64,000 bases of DNA from the NCBI GenBank assembly GCA_001767525.1, contig MELF01000008.1, forward strand, positions 68,748-132,747, given 5' to 3'. The stretch is from Acidobacteria bacterium RIFCSPLOWO2_12_FULL_68_19 (GTDB lineage Bacteria > Acidobacteriota > Vicinamibacteria > Vicinamibacterales > UBA2999). The position numbers and the translations under genes are program-made. Below the pieces are notes generated by a model, which did no database searches, was not told the origin of the DNA, and saw only the letters and a list, made by a program, of their open reading frames with translations. This document shows positions 4,091 through 62,442 of this stretch, piece by piece (the first letter of the stretch is position 1; each line of letters starts with the position of its first letter).

Positions 4091-4582
4091 ATGTTCTCGA
4101 TGCGGCCGATTGGCGTCGCCTACACCCCCTACACCGAGACGGACGGCGTTCCCAAGGGGCTTGGCGCGGCGCACCAGGCCGAGGGCGTCCTGGAGCTGGC
4201 GCCCGAGTACGAACCCGGCCTCACGGATATCGAGGGGTTCTCTCACCTCTACGTGATCTGGGTGTTCGATCGCGTCGAGGGGTACGACCTGATCGCCTCG
4301 CCTCCCAGTGACACCCGGACGCATGGGGTCTTTGCCACGCGGTCGCCGCGCCGCCCGAACGCGATTGGCCTCACCGTCGTCGAACTGCTCGGCCGCGAGG
4401 GGCGGCGCCTGCAGGTGCGCGGCGTCGACATGCTCGACCGAACGCCGATCCTCGACATCAAGCCCTACCTGAGCAGCGTGCCCGAGAGCGAGCTCAGGCG
4501 CGGGTGGCTGGCCGAAGCAGAGGCGCGGGCGGCCGGGTCCGACCGCGACCGCGACCCTGGCAGCGGGCGGACGTTGGGCTAG
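4091..4582 (+). CDS. trmO: tRNA (adenine(37)-N6)-methyltransferase TrmO
   Basis: TrmO (formerly TsaA/YaeB) transfers a methyl group from S-adenosylmethionine to the N6-threonylcarbamoyladenosine at position 37 of ANN-decoding tRNAs. The 163-residue protein carries the family signatures IEGFSHLYVIWVFDRVEGYD, HGVFATRSPRRPNAIGLTVV and DMLDRTPILDIKPYL in the right order. It is a single TsaA beta-barrel domain without the C-terminal extension found in longer homologues. The gene starts 9 bases after the decayed amidohydrolase and stands alone. Identification rests on strong motif matches. Confidence 0.93.
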   Translation: MFSMRPIGVAYTPYTETDGVPKGLGAAHQAEGVLELAPEYEPGLTDIEGFSHLYVIWVFDRVEGYDLIASPPSDTRTHGVFATRSPRRPNAIGLTVVELLGREGRRLQVRGVDMLDRTPILDIKPYLSSVPESELRRGWLAEAEARAAGSDRDRDPGSGRTLG

Positions 4583-4614
4583 AATCGGCGCCATGATCCA
4601 TCGACCGTTCGACC

Positions 4615-4668
4615 AACCAGCCAAGGGGCTCCGCCCCTTGATATCCCCGCGGAACCCCTTGGCTGGTT
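4615..4668. repeat. Nested palindrome: 14-bp outer arms, inner GC-rich hairpin
   Basis: Perfect 14-base arms (AACCAGCCAAGGGG at 4615-4628 and its complement at 4655-4668) enclose a second hairpin, AAGGGGC-TCC-GCCCCTT, that shares bases with the left arm. The two folds are mutually exclusive. It lies between trmO and the start of the next operon. Just downstream (about 4805-4830) is another small inverted repeat, CACCCC...GGGGTG, ending at the next start codon. Confidence 0.7.
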
Positions 4669-4829
4669 GCCAGTATCTTCTGCCGCGCTTCGCGCGGCTA
4701 GGACCGCGATGCGGGCGGACGCAACGAGTACGACATTCGCGTTCCGGGCCGCATAGCGGTCCAAGGATCGCCCCGAGCGGGGCCGAGGGACGAGGACCTC
4801 GGAGTCACCCCGAGCCCGGTCGAGGGGTG

Positions 4830-5726
4830 ATGTCGAGACGAACGATGCTGGCGGCCCCGGCGGCGCTCCTGCTGGCTCGCGCCGTGTCGGCCCAGGGAGG
4901 GAAGATGACACTCGCCCTGCACCAGAACACCTCCGCGGGCGCAGGGTACCGCGGCTCGCTCGAGGGCTGGGCAAAGGCGGGCATCCGGCAGGTCGAAGTC
5001 ACGAGCGCGCTGCTCGACGAGTTCCTGACGACCGATTCGCTGGCGGCCGCGCGCCGGGTGATCACGGACAACGGTCTGACGCCGGTGTCCGGTGCGTGCG
5101 GGGTGACCGGCATCTTCGAGCCGAACCCCGGCCGCGCCGCCGCGCTGGAGAGCTTCAGGAAGCGCTGCGGGCAGTTCCGGGAGCTCGGGTGCACGCGGAT
5201 CTACTCGCCGACGACCGCGACCGGGACGTTCACGGCGGACGACTACAAGCGCGGCGCCGAGAACATGCGCGAGGTGGCGGACATCGCGCGCGGCTCCGGT
5301 CTGACGATGATGGCGGAGGCGGTGCGGGCCTCGACGTTCGTTTCGACGCTGCCGACGCTGCTGCGGATGACGCGCGAGGCGAACCACCCGAACATGGCGC
5401 CGCTCTTCGACTTCTATCACTTCTACTCCGGTCTCAGTAAGCTCGAGGACCTGGACCTGGTTCGCCCGGGGGAGATCGGCCACGTCCACTTCCAGGACGT
5501 CCCCGACCTCCCGCGCGAGCTGCTCGACAACACCACGCGGATCATTCCGGGCGACGGCGTGGCGCCGCTCACCCAGATTCTGCGCACACTGGCCGAGAAG
5601 CAGTACGCCGGGCCGCTCTCGGTGGAGCTGTTCCTGCCGCAGTTCCAGAAAGGCGATCCGTACGAGGTAGCCCGCGAGATCCGACAGAAGGCAGAGGCGG
5701 TCATGCGCCGGGCGCGCGTGATGTGA
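4830..5726 (+). CDS. Exported sugar phosphate isomerase/epimerase-like TIM-barrel protein
   Basis: This is a 298-residue protein of the AP-endonuclease-2/xylose-isomerase-like TIM-barrel family. It opens with an export signal (MSRRTMLAAPAALLLARAVSA, Tat-like SRR), then strand motifs LALHQNTS, IRQVEVTSALLDE, MMAEAVRAST, PLFDFYHFYSG and IGHVHFQDVPD. The last contains the His and Asp/Glu residues typical of the metal site. The start was chosen at the ATG at 4830 because the coding signal and signal peptide begin there and GAGGGG lies just upstream; the frame is open further upstream only through repeat DNA. It heads a tight run of five genes for exported proteins on the same strand. The substrate cannot be told from sequence. 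Confidence 0.8.
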   Translation: MSRRTMLAAPAALLLARAVSAQGGKMTLALHQNTSAGAGYRGSLEGWAKAGIRQVEVTSALLDEFLTTDSLAAARRVITDNGLTPVSGACGVTGIFEPNPGRAAALESFRKRCGQFRELGCTRIYSPTTATGTFTADDYKRGAENMREVADIARGSGLTMMAEAVRASTFVSTLPTLLRMTREANHPNMAPLFDFYHFYSGLSKLEDLDLVRPGEIGHVHFQDVPDLPRELLDNTTRIIPGDGVAPLTQILRTLAEKQYAGPLSVELFLPQFQKGDPYEVAREIRQKAEAVMRRARVM

Positions 5727-5740
5727 GAAGGAGACTTCCG

Positions 5741-6220
5741 ATGAGGCATCTGACCAGATCCGCCGCGCTCACGCTCGGCTCGATGGTTCTTGGCGTCCTG
5801 GTGGCGGCCGGCGCGGCCGTATCCGGGCAGCAGCCGGCCAATCCGCTGGTGGGGGCGTGGCGCGTCACCGAGTTCAGCAACAGGAACGGCACGATTCCCA
5901 ATCCGCAGCCCGGGCTCTATGTCTTCACGCGTCAGCACTACAGCTTCGGGCGTATTCAGGGCACCGAGCCGCTGCCCGACTATCCGTCGAACGACAAGGC
6001 GACACCTGCCCAGAAAGTGACGGCGTTCGACGCCCTGTACTTCAATTCCGGCACGTATACGGTCGCCGGGAACCGGTTGGCGACCATCGCGACGGTCGCC
6101 AAGAGCAGGTTCGCCATCGGCACGCCCGGAAACCAGTACGAGTTCACGATTTCCGGCAGTGTGCTCACGCTGACCGAGCGGTCGTCGGGCACCGTGCTGA
6201 AGCTGACCCGGATCGAATAG
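5741..6220 (+). CDS. Exported lipocalin-like domain protein
   Basis: The 159-residue protein has a Sec signal peptide (hydrophobic core ALTLGSMVLGVLVAAGAAV) and a mature part beginning near NPLVGAWRVTEF, which matches the lipocalin-like beta-barrel family in acidobacterial and related exported proteins (PGLYVFTRQHYSFGRI; later LTLTERSSGTVLKLTRIE). Such proteins are thought to bind small molecules. The start follows GAAGGAGA by 7 bases. It lies 14 bases after the isomerase-like gene, so co-transcription is likely. The ligand is unknown. Confidence 0.75.
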   Translation: MRHLTRSAALTLGSMVLGVLVAAGAAVSGQQPANPLVGAWRVTEFSNRNGTIPNPQPGLYVFTRQHYSFGRIQGTEPLPDYPSNDKATPAQKVTAFDALYFNSGTYTVAGNRLATIATVAKSRFAIGTPGNQYEFTISGSVLTLTERSSGTVLKLTRIE

Positions 6221-6235
6221 CAGAGGAGAACCTCC

Positions 6236-6700
6236 ATGCCTACCACCACCCCACGCTGGGCGCTCGTCGTCCTGGTCGCCTCGCTCGTGCTCGTCTGGAG
6301 AGCTGAGACCACTCAGGACGTCGCCGCGGCGCAGGCGCCGAAGCCGATCGTGATGACGCGCGTGTACACGGGCCCGGACGGGCTGAGCCACGCGGAACAG
6401 ATCGAGATGACGCTGGACGGCAACAACACGGAGATGATGAAGGCGACCGGCGTGCAGTTCAGCCGCCGCGCGCCGGGGCCGGTGAGCGACTGGCATGTGG
6501 GTCCGCGGCGGCAGTTCGTCATCACGCTCAGCGGCCGGGGCGAGCTGGTGATGGGCGACGGCACGAAGGTCGCGGTCGGTCCCGGGCACATCAACCTGAT
6601 CGAGGACACGACGGGCAAGGGGCATACCACCAGGAACGTCGGGCCCGACGACCGGATCGTCGTCACGATTCCGCTCGCCGATCGGGGCGCTACGCGCTGA
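6236..6700 (+). CDS. Exported cupin-fold protein
   Basis: This is a small 154-residue protein with an N-terminal signal or anchor (hydrophobic core WALVVLVASLVLVW) and a single cupin-type beta barrel: DWHVGPRRQFVITLSGRGEL, then GDGTKVAVGPGHINLIED and GKGHTTRNVGPDDRIVV. The spacing fits cupin motifs 1 and 2, but the metal-binding histidines are only partly present, so metal binding is uncertain. An AGAGGAGA ribosome binding site precedes the ATG. Neighbours on both sides are exported enzymes with gaps of about 10-15 bases, so it is probably an operon member. Confidence 0.75.
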   Translation: MPTTTPRWALVVLVASLVLVWRAETTQDVAAAQAPKPIVMTRVYTGPDGLSHAEQIEMTLDGNNTEMMKATGVQFSRRAPGPVSDWHVGPRRQFVITLSGRGELVMGDGTKVAVGPGHINLIEDTTGKGHTTRNVGPDDRIVVTIPLADRGATR

Positions 6701-17018: not shown

Positions 17019-17202
17019 CGTTCACGCTTCTCTCTTCTCGGTTCTCGGTTCGTGTTCTGGGTTCGGTTCGGTTCTGGGTTCGCGGATTCCGAGTTCGGCG
17101 TTCGGTCTGAAGCGCGCCCGAACGCCGAATCCGACCGTCGAACCCGAACGCCGAACGGAACCTGAACACGAACCGAGAACCCAGAACCGAGAAGTGTGAA
17201 CG
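17019..17202. repeat. 184-bp word-repeat palindrome filling the infB-DUF503 spacer
   Basis: The two halves are imperfect reverse complements. The left begins CGTTCACGCTTCTCTCTTCT and the complement of the right CGTTCACACTTCTCGGTTCT, followed in both by words like CGGTTCGTGTTC and GGGTTCGG. The centre is near 17110. The infB stop lies 12 bases from one end and the DUF503 start about 10 bases from the other. A second copy of this family is at 49193-49378. Confidence 0.85.
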
Positions 17203-25707: not shown

Positions 25708-26757
25708 TCAGCGAAGCTCCACGAGATGCTCGGCCAGCAGGTCCCGCAGCCGGCCGAACCGCTCGTACCGCGCCAGGTTCGCCCGCACGTAGTTCAGCGT
25801 CCGCGGAATGTACTGGATGTAGACGGTGTTTCCACGCGACGTCGTCTGGAAGCCGAAGGTGCCGAGCGCCTTCAGGTTGCGCTGGACCGCCATCAGATCG
25901 AAGCGGCGGCGGAAGTCCCGGGCCCCGGCTTCCGGTGCGCCGCGGCGGGCGAGGAAGAAGGCGATGAGTTCGTCGACCTGGGTCTCGCTGAAATCGACGT
26001 AGGAGTCCCGCAGCAGCGACGCGAGGTCGTAGGTGTCCGGGCCCATCCGCGCGTCCTGGAAATCGATGATAAACAGCTTGCCGTCGTGCACCATCAGGTT
26101 GCGGCTGTGATAGTCGCGGTGGCAGAGCACGCGCGGCTCGGAGGCGAGCTCCTCGGCGATCGCGTCGAACTCGGCCGTCAGCGCCTCCCGGGCCGCCGCC
26201 TCTGGCGCGGCGCCGCGGTACGCCTCGAGGAAGTGCTTCGCGAAGAACTGCAGCTCCCACATGAGCTTCTCCACGTCGAATGCGATGCCGTACGGGATGT
26301 ACCCGGGCGAGGCCAGTTCACCTCCGCGGCGCTGTACCGTCGTGATGAAGCCGACCGCCTCGCGGTAGACGGCCGCGTGTTCGGCCGCCGACGCGGCGCC
26401 GACGTGCGCCTGGAGCGTCACATCGCCAAGATCCTCGAGCGCCATGACGCCGAGCGCGTCCGAGTGGTCCAGGATCTGCGGGACCGGCACCGGCATCGCG
26501 CCGAACAGCCGCGCCACGTTGACGAACGGCAGCGCGTCGAACTGGAGGGGGCCCGGGTGCACGGCGAGCACCTGCGACGGTCCGTCGCGGAAGAGCACCC
26601 GGAAGTACTGCCGGTCCGACGCGTCGCCCGTGAGCGGGACGATCCGGACCGCCCGCGCCTGCAGCCCGGCCCCGGCCAGGAACCGGTCGATGCGGGCGCG
26701 GGCATCGAGCGAACTCCCAACTTCCAAACGTCCAACTTCCAAACGTCCAACTCCCAA
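25708..26757 (-). CDS. amgK: Aminoglycoside-phosphotransferase-fold sugar kinase, AmgK-like
   Basis: AmgK-type kinases phosphorylate N-acetylmuramate and N-acetylglucosamine at C1 in peptidoglycan recycling. The protein has a kinase fold: nucleotide-side VPLTGDASDRQYFRVLF, catalytic loop VLCHRDYHSRNLMV and metal motif IIDFQDARMGPDTYDLASLL. It is followed by a nucleotidyltransferase partner gene, the usual AmgK-MurU arrangement, which supports this role over drug resistance. The start is odd: no ATG or GTG precedes the conserved region, and the possible starts are TTG codons within a repeat, giving an N-terminus of repeated LEVGR units. The true start is probably one of these. Confidence 0.82.
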   Translation of the reverse strand: MGVGRLEVGRLEVGSSLDARARIDRFLAGAGLQARAVRIVPLTGDASDRQYFRVLFRDGPSQVLAVHPGPLQFDALPFVNVARLFGAMPVPVPQILDHSDALGVMALEDLGDVTLQAHVGAASAAEHAAVYREAVGFITTVQRRGGELASPGYIPYGIAFDVEKLMWELQFFAKHFLEAYRGAAPEAAAREALTAEFDAIAEELASEPRVLCHRDYHSRNLMVHDGKLFIIDFQDARMGPDTYDLASLLRDSYVDFSETQVDELIAFFLARRGAPEAGARDFRRRFDLMAVQRNLKALGTFGFQTTSRGNTVYIQYIPRTLNYVRANLARYERFGRLRDLLAEHLVELR

Positions 26758-26825
26758 GATTCAGTCTACGTGTTTTGGGCGTTGGGGATTGGGCGTTGGG
26801 CGGTGGGCATTGGAGGTTGGGCGTC
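26705..26825. repeat. Word-repeat palindrome spanning the murU stop and amgK start
   Basis: One half is tandem CCAACTTCCAAACGT, the other tandem TTGGGCGTTGGGGATTGGGCG; they pair imperfectly. The element encodes the last residues of murU (PTAQRPIPNAQNT), provides its TAG stop and supplies the TTG codons from which amgK must start. Confidence 0.8.
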
Positions 26826-27851
26826 GATCGGCGCGACCGCGAGCCCCCCGACGCAGCGTTCGCCCGGCGCGAGTTCGCCCTCGGCGCGCCGCAGCGTCAT
26901 CCCTGTCCACGACGTGGCGGGCGGCACGCGCACGCCGTCGGTGACGATGCACCGGCGGAGCACCGACGCTGCGGCAACCTCCACGTCGTCCCAGAGGACG
27001 GACTCCTCCACGCGCGCGGTGGCGTCGATCCGCGTGCCGGCGCCTCCGAGCGTTCCTCGGCCGCCCTCGCGCTCCGCCAGCAGCAGCGTCGTCCGCAGGT
27101 AGTCGTCCGGAGTGCCGATGTCGAAGAACTCCGCCTCGGTCACGTGCGCCCGCACCGATCCGGGCTTGGCGCGGATGAGCGCCGGGTACACGCCGGCCAC
27201 CGACTTCGCGGCGGTGCCGGGCTCGACCGACGCGAAGGCCTCCGCATCGGCAACCTGGACGCCGATGAAGTGAAACGGTGCGACGGTGCGACGGTGGGAC
27301 GGTGCGACGGTGCGTCCGACGGTGCGACGGTGCGACGGTGCGGGGGTGCCGGGGTGCGACGGTGCGACGGTGCCGCGGTGGGTGAAGCCGGTGACCGTGC
27401 CATCGGCCTCTACGACGACCCCGCCGTACTTGTCCGGCTGCGTGTTCGGCACCACCGCCATCGTCACGAGCGCCCCCGTGCGGCGATGGTCGGCCAGCAG
27501 TCCGGCGATGTCCACGTCGGTTAGCGTGTCGCCGTTGACGACGAGGAACGTTCGCTCGCCGAGGAGCGCGAGCGCCTGTCGCGGCCCGCCGGCCGATCCG
27601 AGGATCGGCGCCTCCCACGAGTAGCGGACGCGGATCCCGAGATCGCTGCCGTCGCCGACGACCGCGGTAATCGTGTGCGGCAGGTGGTGCAGGTTGAGCA
27701 CGGCGTGCTCGACGCCTGCCTCGCGCAGCCGGCGGAGGATCCGCCGGACCAGCGGCTCACCGGCCACCGGCAGCGCCGCCTTGGCGCGGACGAGCGAGAG
27801 GGGACGAAGACGGGTGGCGAGCCCCGCGGTGAGCACCAGCGCGGGAATCAT
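26766..27851 (-). CDS. murU: Nucleotidyltransferase, MurU-like, with an internal repeat insertion
   Basis: MurU-type enzymes attach a nucleotide to MurNAc-1-phosphate, the step after AmgK. The 361-residue protein starts MIPALVLTAGLATRLRPLSL, the nucleotide-binding GxxTRLRPL signature. It has KAALPVAGEPLVRRILRRL, LGSAGGPRQAL and FLVVNGDTLTDVDIAGLLAD, with a C-terminal left-handed helix-like part. After VTGFTHRGT comes a low-complexity stretch of about 30 residues (variants of TVAPSHRR) encoded by tandem GGTGCGAC words, then the normal FHFIGVQVADAEAF resumes. The C-terminal 10-15 residues come from another repeat. The start overlaps the CYTH gene stop (ATGA) with AGGAGG upstream. Confidence 0.85.
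   Translation of the reverse strand: MIPALVLTAGLATRLRPLSLVRAKAALPVAGEPLVRRILRRLREAGVEHAVLNLHHLPHTITAVVGDGSDLGIRVRYSWEAPILGSAGGPRQALALLGERTFLVVNGDTLTDVDIAGLLADHRRTGALVTMAVVPNTQPDKYGGVVVEADGTVTGFTHRGTVAPSHPGTPAPSHRRTVGRTVAPSHRRTVAPFHFIGVQVADAEAFASVEPGTAAKSVAGVYPALIRAKPGSVRAHVTEAEFFDIGTPDDYLRTTLLLAEREGGRGTLGGAGTRIDATARVEESVLWDDVEVAAASVLRRCIVTDGVRVPPATSWTGMTLRRAEGELAPGERCVGGLAVAPIDAQPPMPTAQRPIPNAQNT
27274..27380. repeat. Tandem GGTGCGAC repeat inside murU
   Basis: About 105 bases of irregular tandem GGTGCGAC/GGTGGGAC words interrupt murU in frame. The unit is eight bases, not a multiple of three, yet the total leaves the frame intact. It is translated as a Thr-Val-Ala-Pro-Ser-His-Arg-rich loop. 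Confidence 0.9.
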
Positions 27852-28402
27852 TCCTCCTGGAACACCATGTGCTCGCCGTCCAGCCCGTGTGTCGCCCGGT
27901 GCTGGATGAAGAGATTGCGATAGGAATCGAGGATGAAATCGGTCGCCGAGCGTCCGAGCGCCTGCGCGATCGTGTGGATGCCCGGCTCTCCGCCTTCGAT
28001 CTCGACGAAGGTTCCGACCGGCGTCTCATCGAGCGCGATCGTCACGTCCTCGGCGGCGTACTCCTCGCGGTACTTCTCGTAGCGGAACCAGACGTGCAGG
28101 CCGAGCTCCTCGAAGACGCGCTTCAGCACCTCGCCGTCGGCCACCACCGTCTCGTACTCGTCGCGGATCTTCACCGTGCCTGGCTGCGCCGGTCCCTTGA
28201 ACGTCAGCAGGCTCTTGCCCGCCTCCGTCCGGATCCGCAGCACGCACCGGCGGCGCCGCAGCGTCTCGTCGTCGGTATCGAGCAGCACGTCTTCCTGCAG
28301 GCGCCGGGAGCGAAGAGGGGTGGCGCCGGTGGCGCAGATGGCGGCACGGGCCTGCTCCGGACTGTCGAACCGCAGTTTGACTTCGCGCTCGACCATCAGC
28401 AT
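27848..28402 (-). CDS. CYTH domain protein (class IV adenylate cyclase/thiamine triphosphatase-like)
   Basis: This is a 184-residue protein with the CYTH signature VEREVKLRF near its start, followed by strand motifs LLDTDDETLRRRRCVLRIRT, SLLTFKGPAQPG, VKIRDEYETVV and FRYEKYREEY. It ends with FVEIEGGEPGI. The alternating charged residues of the tunnel fold, which binds triphosphates and metal, are kept. Members act as adenylate cyclases, thiamine triphosphatases or inorganic triphosphatases; the sequence does not decide between them. Start ATG at 28402 or 28396. The stop overlaps the murU start. Confidence 0.85.
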   Translation of the reverse strand: MLMVEREVKLRFDSPEQARAAICATGATPLRSRRLQEDVLLDTDDETLRRRRCVLRIRTEAGKSLLTFKGPAQPGTVKIRDEYETVVADGEVLKRVFEELGLHVWFRYEKYREEYAAEDVTIALDETPVGTFVEIEGGEPGIHTIAQALGRSATDFILDSYRNLFIQHRATHGLDGEHMVFQEE

Positions 28403-28446
28403 GCGAGGGGCCCTCCAGGAAGGGAATCTTGTACCACAAAGCAGGA

Positions 28447-28475
28447 GGCCCCAGGGCTGGAACAGCCCTGGGGCC
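28447..28475. terminator. GC-rich hairpin after degP
   Basis: A perfect 13-bp stem (GGCCCCAGGGCTG and complement, 3-base loop) with a further partial GGCC copy beside it lies between degP and the CYTH gene. There is no T-run. It may slow or stop transcription or be one more of the short palindromic elements. Confidence 0.55.
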
Positions 28476-28496
28476 ACGGGGGCCGAGGCCTGGGGC

Positions 28497-60818: not shown

Positions 60819-62318
60819 ATGAAACGTTGGCATCTCGCGGTGGCGGCGATGGCGCTGGCGCTGGGCGCGGGGGTGGGCGCACAGAACCAGGCGGACTCGC
60901 GCGATATGGCGCTGCTCGGCCATAGCGATCTGCAGGCCCGCAGCGCCTACATGCCCGTGATCCACCGGCAGGGCGACCGCTACATCGCCTACGTCGGTCA
61001 CCACGGCGGGCAGGCGCAGAATTCGCTGACCGGACGGATGGAGCAGAACGGGACGTCGGTTGTCGACGTCACCAACCCGCGCAGTCCGCGGTATCTCGCC
61101 CACATCCCCGGCGATGCCGGCGAAGGCGAGGGGGGCGGCGCCCAGATGGTGGCGGTCTGCAACGGCAGCCGGCTGCCGCGCGCCGACCGGACGAAAGTCT
61201 ACATGCTGCGCTCCTTCGGCGGCTCGGCCCACGAGGTCTGGGACGTGACGGCCCCGGAGAAGCCGGCGCGGGTCACCGTCGTCGTCAGCGGCCTGCGCGA
61301 CACGCACAAGAGCTTCTGGGAATGCGACACGGGCATCGCGTATCTCGTGTCGGGCGATCCCGCCTGGCGGACGCGCCGGATGACGAAGATCTACGACCTG
61401 GGCAATCCGGCGAGCCCGGTCTTCGTTCGCGACTACGGCGTGGTCGGGCAGCAGCCGGGCGCGACCGGAGAGGTGCCGACCGAGCTCCACGGGCCGATCT
61501 CGCTCGGGCCGAAGGGCAATCGCGTCTACTTCTCGCACGGCACGGGGCGCGGGGGCATCGTCCAGGTCGTCGACCGCGAGAAGCTGCTGAACGGGCCGAA
61601 AGAACCGACGCCGGAGAACCTGCGGTATCCGGTCATCACGCAGATCGACCTTCCGCCGGAGTCGGGCGCGCACACGTCGCTGCCGCTGCTCGGGATGCCG
61701 ATGCCGGAGTTCGCCAAGCAGCGGCCCCCCGCCAATCATCCCCAGCCGGGCGCCGGGCACGAGCACGGCGACACGATTCCGCGGCTGACGACGGGCGGCC
61801 CGCACCGGGACTTCCTGGCGGTGGTCGGCGAGACGACCGGCAACGAATGCCTCGAAAACCGGCAGTTCGTCCGGATGGTGGACATCACGTGGGACACCAA
61901 TCCGATCGGCGTGGAGACGTTCAACGTGCCCGAGGCGAGCGGCAACTTCTGCGGCCGCGGCGGGCGCTTCGGCGCGCACGCCTCGCACGAGAACCCGACG
62001 CCGATCTATTACGGGCGCGTGCTCTTCGTCAGCTGGTTCAACGCCGGCGTGCGGGCGATTGACATCCGCGATCCCTACGATCTGAAGGAGATCGGCTATT
62101 ACATCCCCGCGACGACCGACAAGACCGACCAGCGCTGCGTGGGACAGGGCGCCGAGCGCCGGTGCAAGATTGCGATTCAGAGCAACAACGTGGAGGTCGA
62201 CGATCGCGGCTACATCTACATCGCCGACCGCGCCAACACGGGCCTGCACGTCGTCGAGCTGACCGGCGCCGCGCGGCGCGTGGCGAACTTCCCCGGCCAG
62301 AGCACGGCGCGGAACTAG
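60819..62318 (+). CDS. Exported LVIVD-repeat beta-propeller protein
   Basis: This is a 499-residue exported protein with a signal peptide (RWHLAVAAMALALGAGVGA) and repeated short strands of the LVIVD/propeller type: GTSVVDVTNPRSPRYLAHIP, HEVWDVTAPEKPARVTVVVS, TKIYDLGNPASPVFVRDYG, RAIDIRDPYDLKEIGYYIP. The start ATG follows AGGAGAG. Function is unknown; relatives are often next to exported amidohydrolases, as here. The stop TAG is the first word of a tandem repeat. Confidence 0.85.
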   Translation: MKRWHLAVAAMALALGAGVGAQNQADSRDMALLGHSDLQARSAYMPVIHRQGDRYIAYVGHHGGQAQNSLTGRMEQNGTSVVDVTNPRSPRYLAHIPGDAGEGEGGGAQMVAVCNGSRLPRADRTKVYMLRSFGGSAHEVWDVTAPEKPARVTVVVSGLRDTHKSFWECDTGIAYLVSGDPAWRTRRMTKIYDLGNPASPVFVRDYGVVGQQPGATGEVPTELHGPISLGPKGNRVYFSHGTGRGGIVQVVDREKLLNGPKEPTPENLRYPVITQIDLPPESGAHTSLPLLGMPMPEFAKQRPPANHPQPGAGHEHGDTIPRLTTGGPHRDFLAVVGETTGNECLENRQFVRMVDITWDTNPIGVETFNVPEASGNFCGRGGRFGAHASHENPTPIYYGRVLFVSWFNAGVRAIDIRDPYDLKEIGYYIPATTDKTDQRCVGQGAERRCKIAIQSNNVEVDDRGYIYIADRANTGLHVVELTGAARRVANFPGQSTARN

Positions 62319-62442
62319 CCGGTAGCTGGTAGCTGGTAGCCGGTAGCTGGTAGCCGGTAGCGGACAAGTGGCTGCCGGCTGCCGAATCTCACCTAACTGT
62401 TGGGTGTTGGGCGTTGGGCGTTGGGCGTTGGGCCTTGGGCTA
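62316..62442. repeat. Tandem word repeats filling the gap between convergent genes
   Basis: First about 45 bases of TAGCTGG/TAGCCGG words, then after a 30-base centre about 40 bases of GTTGGGC words. Both convergent genes end with TAG codons that are themselves part of the repeats. Confidence 0.85.

Follow-up and report, generated by a model that had tools for sequence, protein, structure and literature searches.

How did a tandem octamer array come to lie, in frame, inside the gene of a conserved sugar-1-phosphate nucleotidyltransferase, and what became of the enzyme that carries it? This question is raised by a locus in the window, that is, the whole 64,000-nucleotide stretch of DNA from Acidobacteria bacterium RIFCSPLOWO2_12_FULL_68_19 that was analyzed. 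The following features are involved:

26766-27851, minus strand: intact ORF of a sugar-1-phosphate nucleotidyltransferase, 361 aa, carrying the array (PF00483, E=1e-23; PF24894).
27275-27373, G-rich strand on the plus strand and hence antisense to the gene: octamer array of about 13 imperfect copies of GGTGCGAC, 99 bp (TRF, sequence and orthologue comparison).
27848-28477, minus strand: CYTH-domain protein (PF01928) overlapping the nucleotidyltransferase start, a conserved upstream neighbour (tblastn in orthologous loci).
25708-26757, minus strand: AmgK-like sugar kinase of the APH family (PF01636), a neighbour in 29/30 orthologous loci.

TRF assigned the array a period of 8 with 12.9 copies, 82% matches, 8% indels and a score of 121, the highest in the window for any array of period 6-9. 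The coding-strand unit is GTCGCACC, which is translated into a TVAPSHRR-like peptide at about residues 160-192. The initial annotation had described a translated tandem array that keeps the frame between two conserved blocks, and indeed the array lies in a stop-free ORF with conserved blocks on both sides. Its description of the DNA as a run of 8-base words holds for the period, but the units themselves are imperfect and interspersed with spacers of other lengths, and the longest perfect period-8 run measures 26 bp. It had also argued that selection filtered the length, eight not being a multiple of three. This is right for the total length, but matters little inside the array, where every frame is open: (GTCGCACC)n contains no stop in any of the six frames and, because its unit length is not a multiple of three, encodes the identical 8-residue cycle in all three forward frames. 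The interior is thus frame-indifferent, and only the total array length is constrained.

Elsewhere, tandem repeats in or near genes switch expression phase, the 7-bp repeats of the H. influenzae HMW adhesins reportedly being an example. As eight is not divisible by three, adding or losing a single unit would shift the frame and could turn the enzyme off and on. We consider such a switch very improbable at this locus, since the perfect run is so short, the array sits mid-gene in a housekeeping-type operon while most family members are intergenic, and the open frame through the loop is intact in the relatives examined. For the related heptamers of Xanthomonas, Rehm et al. likewise judged phase variation unlikely (PMC4692102).

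Comparison with orthologues revealed an insert of 27 residues (81 bp): the segment spans 62 residues here vs 35 in most of 30 orthologues. A homologue of the enzyme was present in 59/59 genomes searched; a scan of genome contigs with the single protein returned only distant proteobacterial relatives. Since the CYTH gene lies upstream in 30 loci and the kinase adjoins in 29/30, the compared loci are orthologous. Residues that are invariant in the family flank the insert on both sides, among them H193, G196 and Q198 behind it. Against seven orthologues, third codon positions were the most substituted before and after the insert; relative to orthologous locus L013, substitutions at positions 1, 2 and 3 were 0.14, 0.08 and 0.39 before the insert and 0.23, 0.18 and 0.45 after it. 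The downstream half is therefore still under selection as protein, and, given the invariant residues and the third-position bias on both sides, the gene looks functional rather than like a pseudogene. The genome is a 52-contig draft and tandem repeats are notoriously prone to misassembly, so a collapsed array or a chimeric repeat masking a broken gene had to be weighed. The chance of this is slight, as the frame, the conserved family residues and the C-terminal domain are intact, the bias persists behind the insert, and analogous loop insertions occur in the single-contig genome of a relative (G037) and in several other assemblies.

The enzyme consists of an NTP_transferase domain and a C-terminal left-handed beta-helix (GlmU-like hexapeptide) according to Pfam. 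The identification as MurU did not hold at the equivalog level, since the protein missed both NCBIfam cut-offs (118 vs 250 and 65 vs 370 bits); its best NCBIfam profile was mannose-1-P guanylyltransferase, with 148 against a cut-off of 440. Likewise, the kinase stayed below the NCBIfam equivalog cut-offs for AmgK, its supposed partner identity (162 vs 550 and 95 vs 500 bits), and we found no pointer to the suggested effect on cell-wall recycling. The resemblance to MurU (N-acetylmuramate-1-phosphate uridylyltransferase; PDB 4y7t, 8hhd) lies in the N-terminal nucleotidyltransferase fold, with a TM-score of 0.90 by target length, and an APH-type kinase adjoins the nucleotidyltransferase as in the amgK-murU pair. 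In contrast to MurU, the enzyme has the additional beta-helix domain. Judged by these profiles, the gene pair appears MurU/AmgK-like in arrangement, with an identity at the family level only.

An AlphaFold2 model built with 29 orthologues reached a mean pLDDT of 88.7 and a pTM of 0.86, with 286/360 residues at >=90. Two stretches between strands 151-156 and 192-201, namely residues 164-169 and 171-185, fell below a pLDDT of 50. The model, which the annotation had called for, thus predicts the insert as the disordered part of a beta-hairpin loop in an otherwise confident fold. A second segment with pLDDT <50 is the C-terminal tail, residues 351-360. The best structural matches were larger NDP-sugar pyrophosphorylases with a beta-helix; MurU fits the N-terminal domain only. 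By profile alignment, the insertion follows just after the EKP-equivalent segment of solved homologues, which we take to be the conserved sugar-phosphate-binding segment of nucleotidyltransferases, so that the insertion presumably lies near the sugar-phosphate site. Such a position, and repeated hits on the loop, which selection could cause, would fit a recruitment of the insert to modify the enzyme, for instance in substrate access, oligomerisation or partner binding. We regard this as improbable: unrelated peptides occupy the loop in different lineages, a relative of the same genus (G001) has a short loop, and the insert is predicted to be disordered, with none of its residues conserved.

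Two points go beyond the initial annotation, namely that the array belongs to a genome-wide family and that its loop looks like a site of repeated insertion. This genome has 51 exact occurrences of the double unit GGTGCGACGGTGCGAC, spread over 29 sites, compared with 0-6 in each of 58 relatives; a reversed control gave 0 occurrences. The repeat census of the draft combined pattern searches with selected stretches of sequence, using gene calls from a home-made codon model and array loci picked by exact unit matches. In the stretches examined, 40/42 arrays lie outside the predicted genes, with a median distance of 17 bp to the nearest gene boundary. Given a coding fraction of 0.86, the 2/42 intragenic arrays fall short of expectation about 18-fold (P about 1e-33). 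The strand reading GGTGCG points away from the nearest gene in 37/40 arrays, whatever the direction of that gene (P = 2e-8), and inverted array pairs are frequent, with the GGTGCG arm first in the pairs read. A boundary-polarity rule of this kind was not evident in the TTGGGCG or GGTGCCTG families. Two more dispersed families of this genome are made up of TTGGGCG and TAGCCGG heptamers, and 260 kb of sequence (the window and stretches chosen regardless of unit) contained about a dozen 7-8-mer arrays belonging to three unit families. Since GGTGCGAC has a single GG tract and no GGG tract, the octamer lacks the canonical four-GGG G-quadruplex pattern, and a quadruplex function of the octamer is considered unlikely; arrays of TTGGGCG do hold GGG tracts. 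Spread driven by a RAYT was considered but not supported, as octamer arrays do not flank the sole Y1_Tnp gene and two relatives (G016, G018) without a Y1_Tnp match nevertheless carry arrays. This single Y1 transposase (RAYT-like) gene, at L188 (G000:C5:34500-39500), is flanked by REP-like sequence of the GGGGTCTGACCCC/GGGGTCAGACCCCGGGTCTGACCCC type, which has no relation to the octamer arrays.

Two stretches within the intragenic array bear on its origin:

27309-27320, plus strand: composite motif GGTGCGTCCGAC, which breaks the 8-bp period and is common to most dispersed arrays of this genome.
27298-27342, plus strand: 45-bp stretch identical to an intergenic array (G000:C25, locus L089, minus strand), from a search for longest exact matches.

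In the form GGTGCGTCCGA[CT], the composite is present in 30/42 arrays, both intragenic ones included, and two more arrays (L090 and L098) match 44 bp of the intragenic array exactly. Because the 45-bp exact stretch shared with the intergenic array is partly non-periodic, the dispersed family is the most likely source from which the intragenic array was copied. Replication slippage is the standard source of tandem arrays, and the units of the insert are indeed tandem. A short TCGCACCGTCG-like seed in the native loop might thus have expanded in place, independently of the dispersed arrays; native loops of some relatives hold TCGCAC..CCGTCG-like sequence (e.g. L020), which could have been the seed of such local growth. 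We nevertheless hold this to be rather unlikely. The shared 45 bp include the period-breaking composite, and the differing units in this loop are, genome by genome, those of the dispersed family of that genome, a match that local seeds would leave unaccounted for. Since independent slippage is not expected to reproduce composites, copying from array to array explains the data better. The copying-in event and its mechanism are read from shared sequence and would have left no definable target-site duplication, because the native 15-bp loop diverges fast.

We compared the same loop in relatives. One genome (G025) carries CAGGCACC units there, and has 84 double units of CAGGCACC vs 0-3 elsewhere; another (G003) carries GTCGCCCC/GTCGCACC-like units and a third (G022) a 9-bp unit. 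In the single-contig genome G037, CCCGACT heptamers, with 77 matches in that genome, occupy the neighbouring hairpin loop. A tree calculated without the loop columns sets the carriers apart by insert-free lineages, including the same-genus relative G001 with its short loop; G022 was too short to be included and support was moderate (SH-aLRT 82-100, many open forks). A rough calculation for one gene in 58 genomes puts the chance of at least 2 further hits near 1e-3 and of at least 3 near 1e-5, assuming about 3 internal coding arrays per genome over 4000 genes; genes differ in tolerance, and the scan covered part of the genes. Among 21 arrays of G025 sampled, that in the nucleotidyltransferase loop was the only one interrupting a protein interior. 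Since relatives' own repeat families sit in the same loop in separate lineages, the loop looks like a recurrent landing site for repeat DNA.

Two further in-frame arrays lie in conserved genes of other function:

L093:4972-5097 (G000:C32), minus strand, in gene 4400-6436: second in-frame octamer array, in a loop of NuoL (complex I).
L078:881-1000, plus strand, in gene 158-2623: penicillin amidase ORF with an in-frame inverted pair of TTGGGCG heptamer arrays (..PPPPNAQRPTLERIESKLGVGNWGLGVDD..).

The NuoL array shares 63 identical bp with an intergenic array, and in several genomes the NuoL loop holds GGTGCGAC arrays, GGGATC inverted pairs (e.g. G001, G016), other units or His/Ala-rich sequence. 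It is a second hot spot that behaves like the nucleotidyltransferase loop. Among the hairpin-loop insertions of the nucleotidyltransferase, the four clearest (G000, which is this genome, G003, G025 and G037) have the C-rich strand as coding strand, which yields a Pro/Ser/His/Arg-rich peptide. Some of the NuoL arrays and a C-terminal tail of G025 have the G-rich strand in sense orientation. A preference for the C-rich coding strand is not general and is a lead only, because numbers are small and NuoL loops show both strands. On the 7.48 Mb contig of G037 (G037:C1), most CCCGACT arrays of the first 2.5 Mb lie on the plus strand and most of those beyond it on the minus strand (Fisher P 0.001-0.02, varying with where the terminus is placed), which suggests a replication-strand bias of these arrays.

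We favor, at a probability of roughly 75%, that the insert stems from a dispersed, genome-private octamer family, one copy of which was placed in frame in a permissive, solvent-exposed beta-hairpin loop of a sugar-nucleotide pyrophosphorylase, where it is tolerated. The process would start from the few dozen (GGTGCGAC)n loci observed in this genome, mostly at gene ends and often as inverted pairs. Array segments would then be copied from locus to locus, as the shared non-periodic sequence suggests, most probably by template switching or by gene conversion from one array to another, and slippage would adjust their length. Insertions into coding sequence are far rarer than expected, and the survivors lie in-frame, in loops or at protein ends, an outcome that is observed and whose cause we infer. 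The C-rich coding strand, stop-free in every frame and disorder-prone in its predicted product, is the orientation in the hairpin-loop cases of the enzyme. Relatives' own families reached the same loop in separate lineages. The enzyme has probably kept its activity, and the insert would be functionally neutral or nearly so. A wider reading, possible though tentative, is that every lineage of the order has an active array-copying process of its own, akin to a mobile short-repeat system and with a fixed inverted-pair polarity at gene boundaries. Such systems might repeatedly seed arrays, including in preferred loops of the same conserved enzymes, and so generate disordered loops as raw material for protein evolution.

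The closest relatives of the octamer family appear to be the G-rich heptameric repeats GGGNATC of Xanthomonas and Nostoc (Rehm et al. 2015; PMC4692102). In the portions of that report used here, these are dispersed genome-wide, mostly intergenic and near ORF ends, depleted in coding sequence, private to lineages in their unit and possibly arranged in inverted pairs. Here we likewise found many loci sharing a 6-9 bp unit, over-represented in non-coding DNA near ORF ends, and GGGATCS arrays of the Xanthomonas/Nostoc type occur in many of the relatives. Unlike those repeats, the family here has an 8-bp unit whose G tracts do not exceed GG, with no canonical four-GGG quadruplex, and its arrays are oriented by the gene boundary and not by the direction of the gene; repeated insertion, in frame, into loops of conserved enzymes in several lineages is not described for them in the same portions of PMC4692102. 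The Calothrix tandem heptanucleotides (cited in PMC4692102) and the TAACTGA repeats of Beggiatoaceae (PMC4679880) are similar, as far as these accounts describe them, in being dispersed 7-mer arrays that are mainly intergenic. They differ in unit and phylum, and translation in conserved enzymes is not a theme in the sections of either source cited here.

The best-known precedent for in-frame repeats in genes, according to the account in PMC10969869, are the Rickettsia palindromic elements (Ogata et al. 2000, 2002), palindromes of about 150 bp with a conserved peptide, nearly half of which lie inside ORFs. As described there, these likewise place repetitive DNA in-frame in unrelated protein genes, apparently compatible with fold and function. 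The nucleotidyltransferase loop, the NuoL loop and penicillin amidase are such in-frame insertions in conserved genes at fold-compatible positions. Unlike the Rickettsia elements, the array here is tandem and variable in length and its coding copies are rare; insert lengths and peptides differ between genomes, with no fixed-length palindrome encoding a conserved peptide. The present case joins the behavior of dispersed heptamers with that of the Rickettsia elements, with lineage-private units arriving in the same loop. It is best read as a tolerated, selfish-like invasion of permissive loops, in which the Xanthomonas/Nostoc class of heptamers and octamers behaves like Rickettsia palindromic elements. 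A literature search covering few subscription journals returned no report of in-frame octamer insertions in these bacteria, nor of lineage-private units entering one and the same loop.

Bacterial families of short-unit repeats are seen here entering conserved enzymes in-frame. The private repeats of different lineages at the same loop provide a natural insertion map of permissive protein loops, and donor-recipient identity, composite motifs and polarity offer a way to ask how arrays move. For annotation, a warning follows: translated arrays, such as those giving TVAPSHRR, RPTPNAQ and PTPDSRL peptides, are not conserved domains.

Two heptamer arrays lie where the octamer-bearing gene meets the kinase gene:

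26775-26824, plus strand: (TTGGGCG)n 7-mer array overlapping and encoding the low-confidence C-terminal tail of the nucleotidyltransferase (..MPTAQRPIPNAQNT) (TRF; pLDDT).
26712-26757, minus strand: complementary 7-mer array across the kinase start region (TRF).

Together they form a long intergenic hairpin (DNA fold z = -4.1), which could be a terminator or attenuator. At 26705-26830 of the window, the hairpin overlaps the ends of both the nucleotidyltransferase and the kinase gene and blurs the kinase start codon. Because the first residues are array-encoded and homology begins at about residue 4-16 counted from a start at 26727, the kinase may start at 26727 or further in. A similar anatomy is found at 62316-62440 and 17038-17193 of the window, with 7-mer arrays (TAGCCGG, GTTGGGC) and a TCGGTTCGTGTTC / CCGAACG inverted pair.
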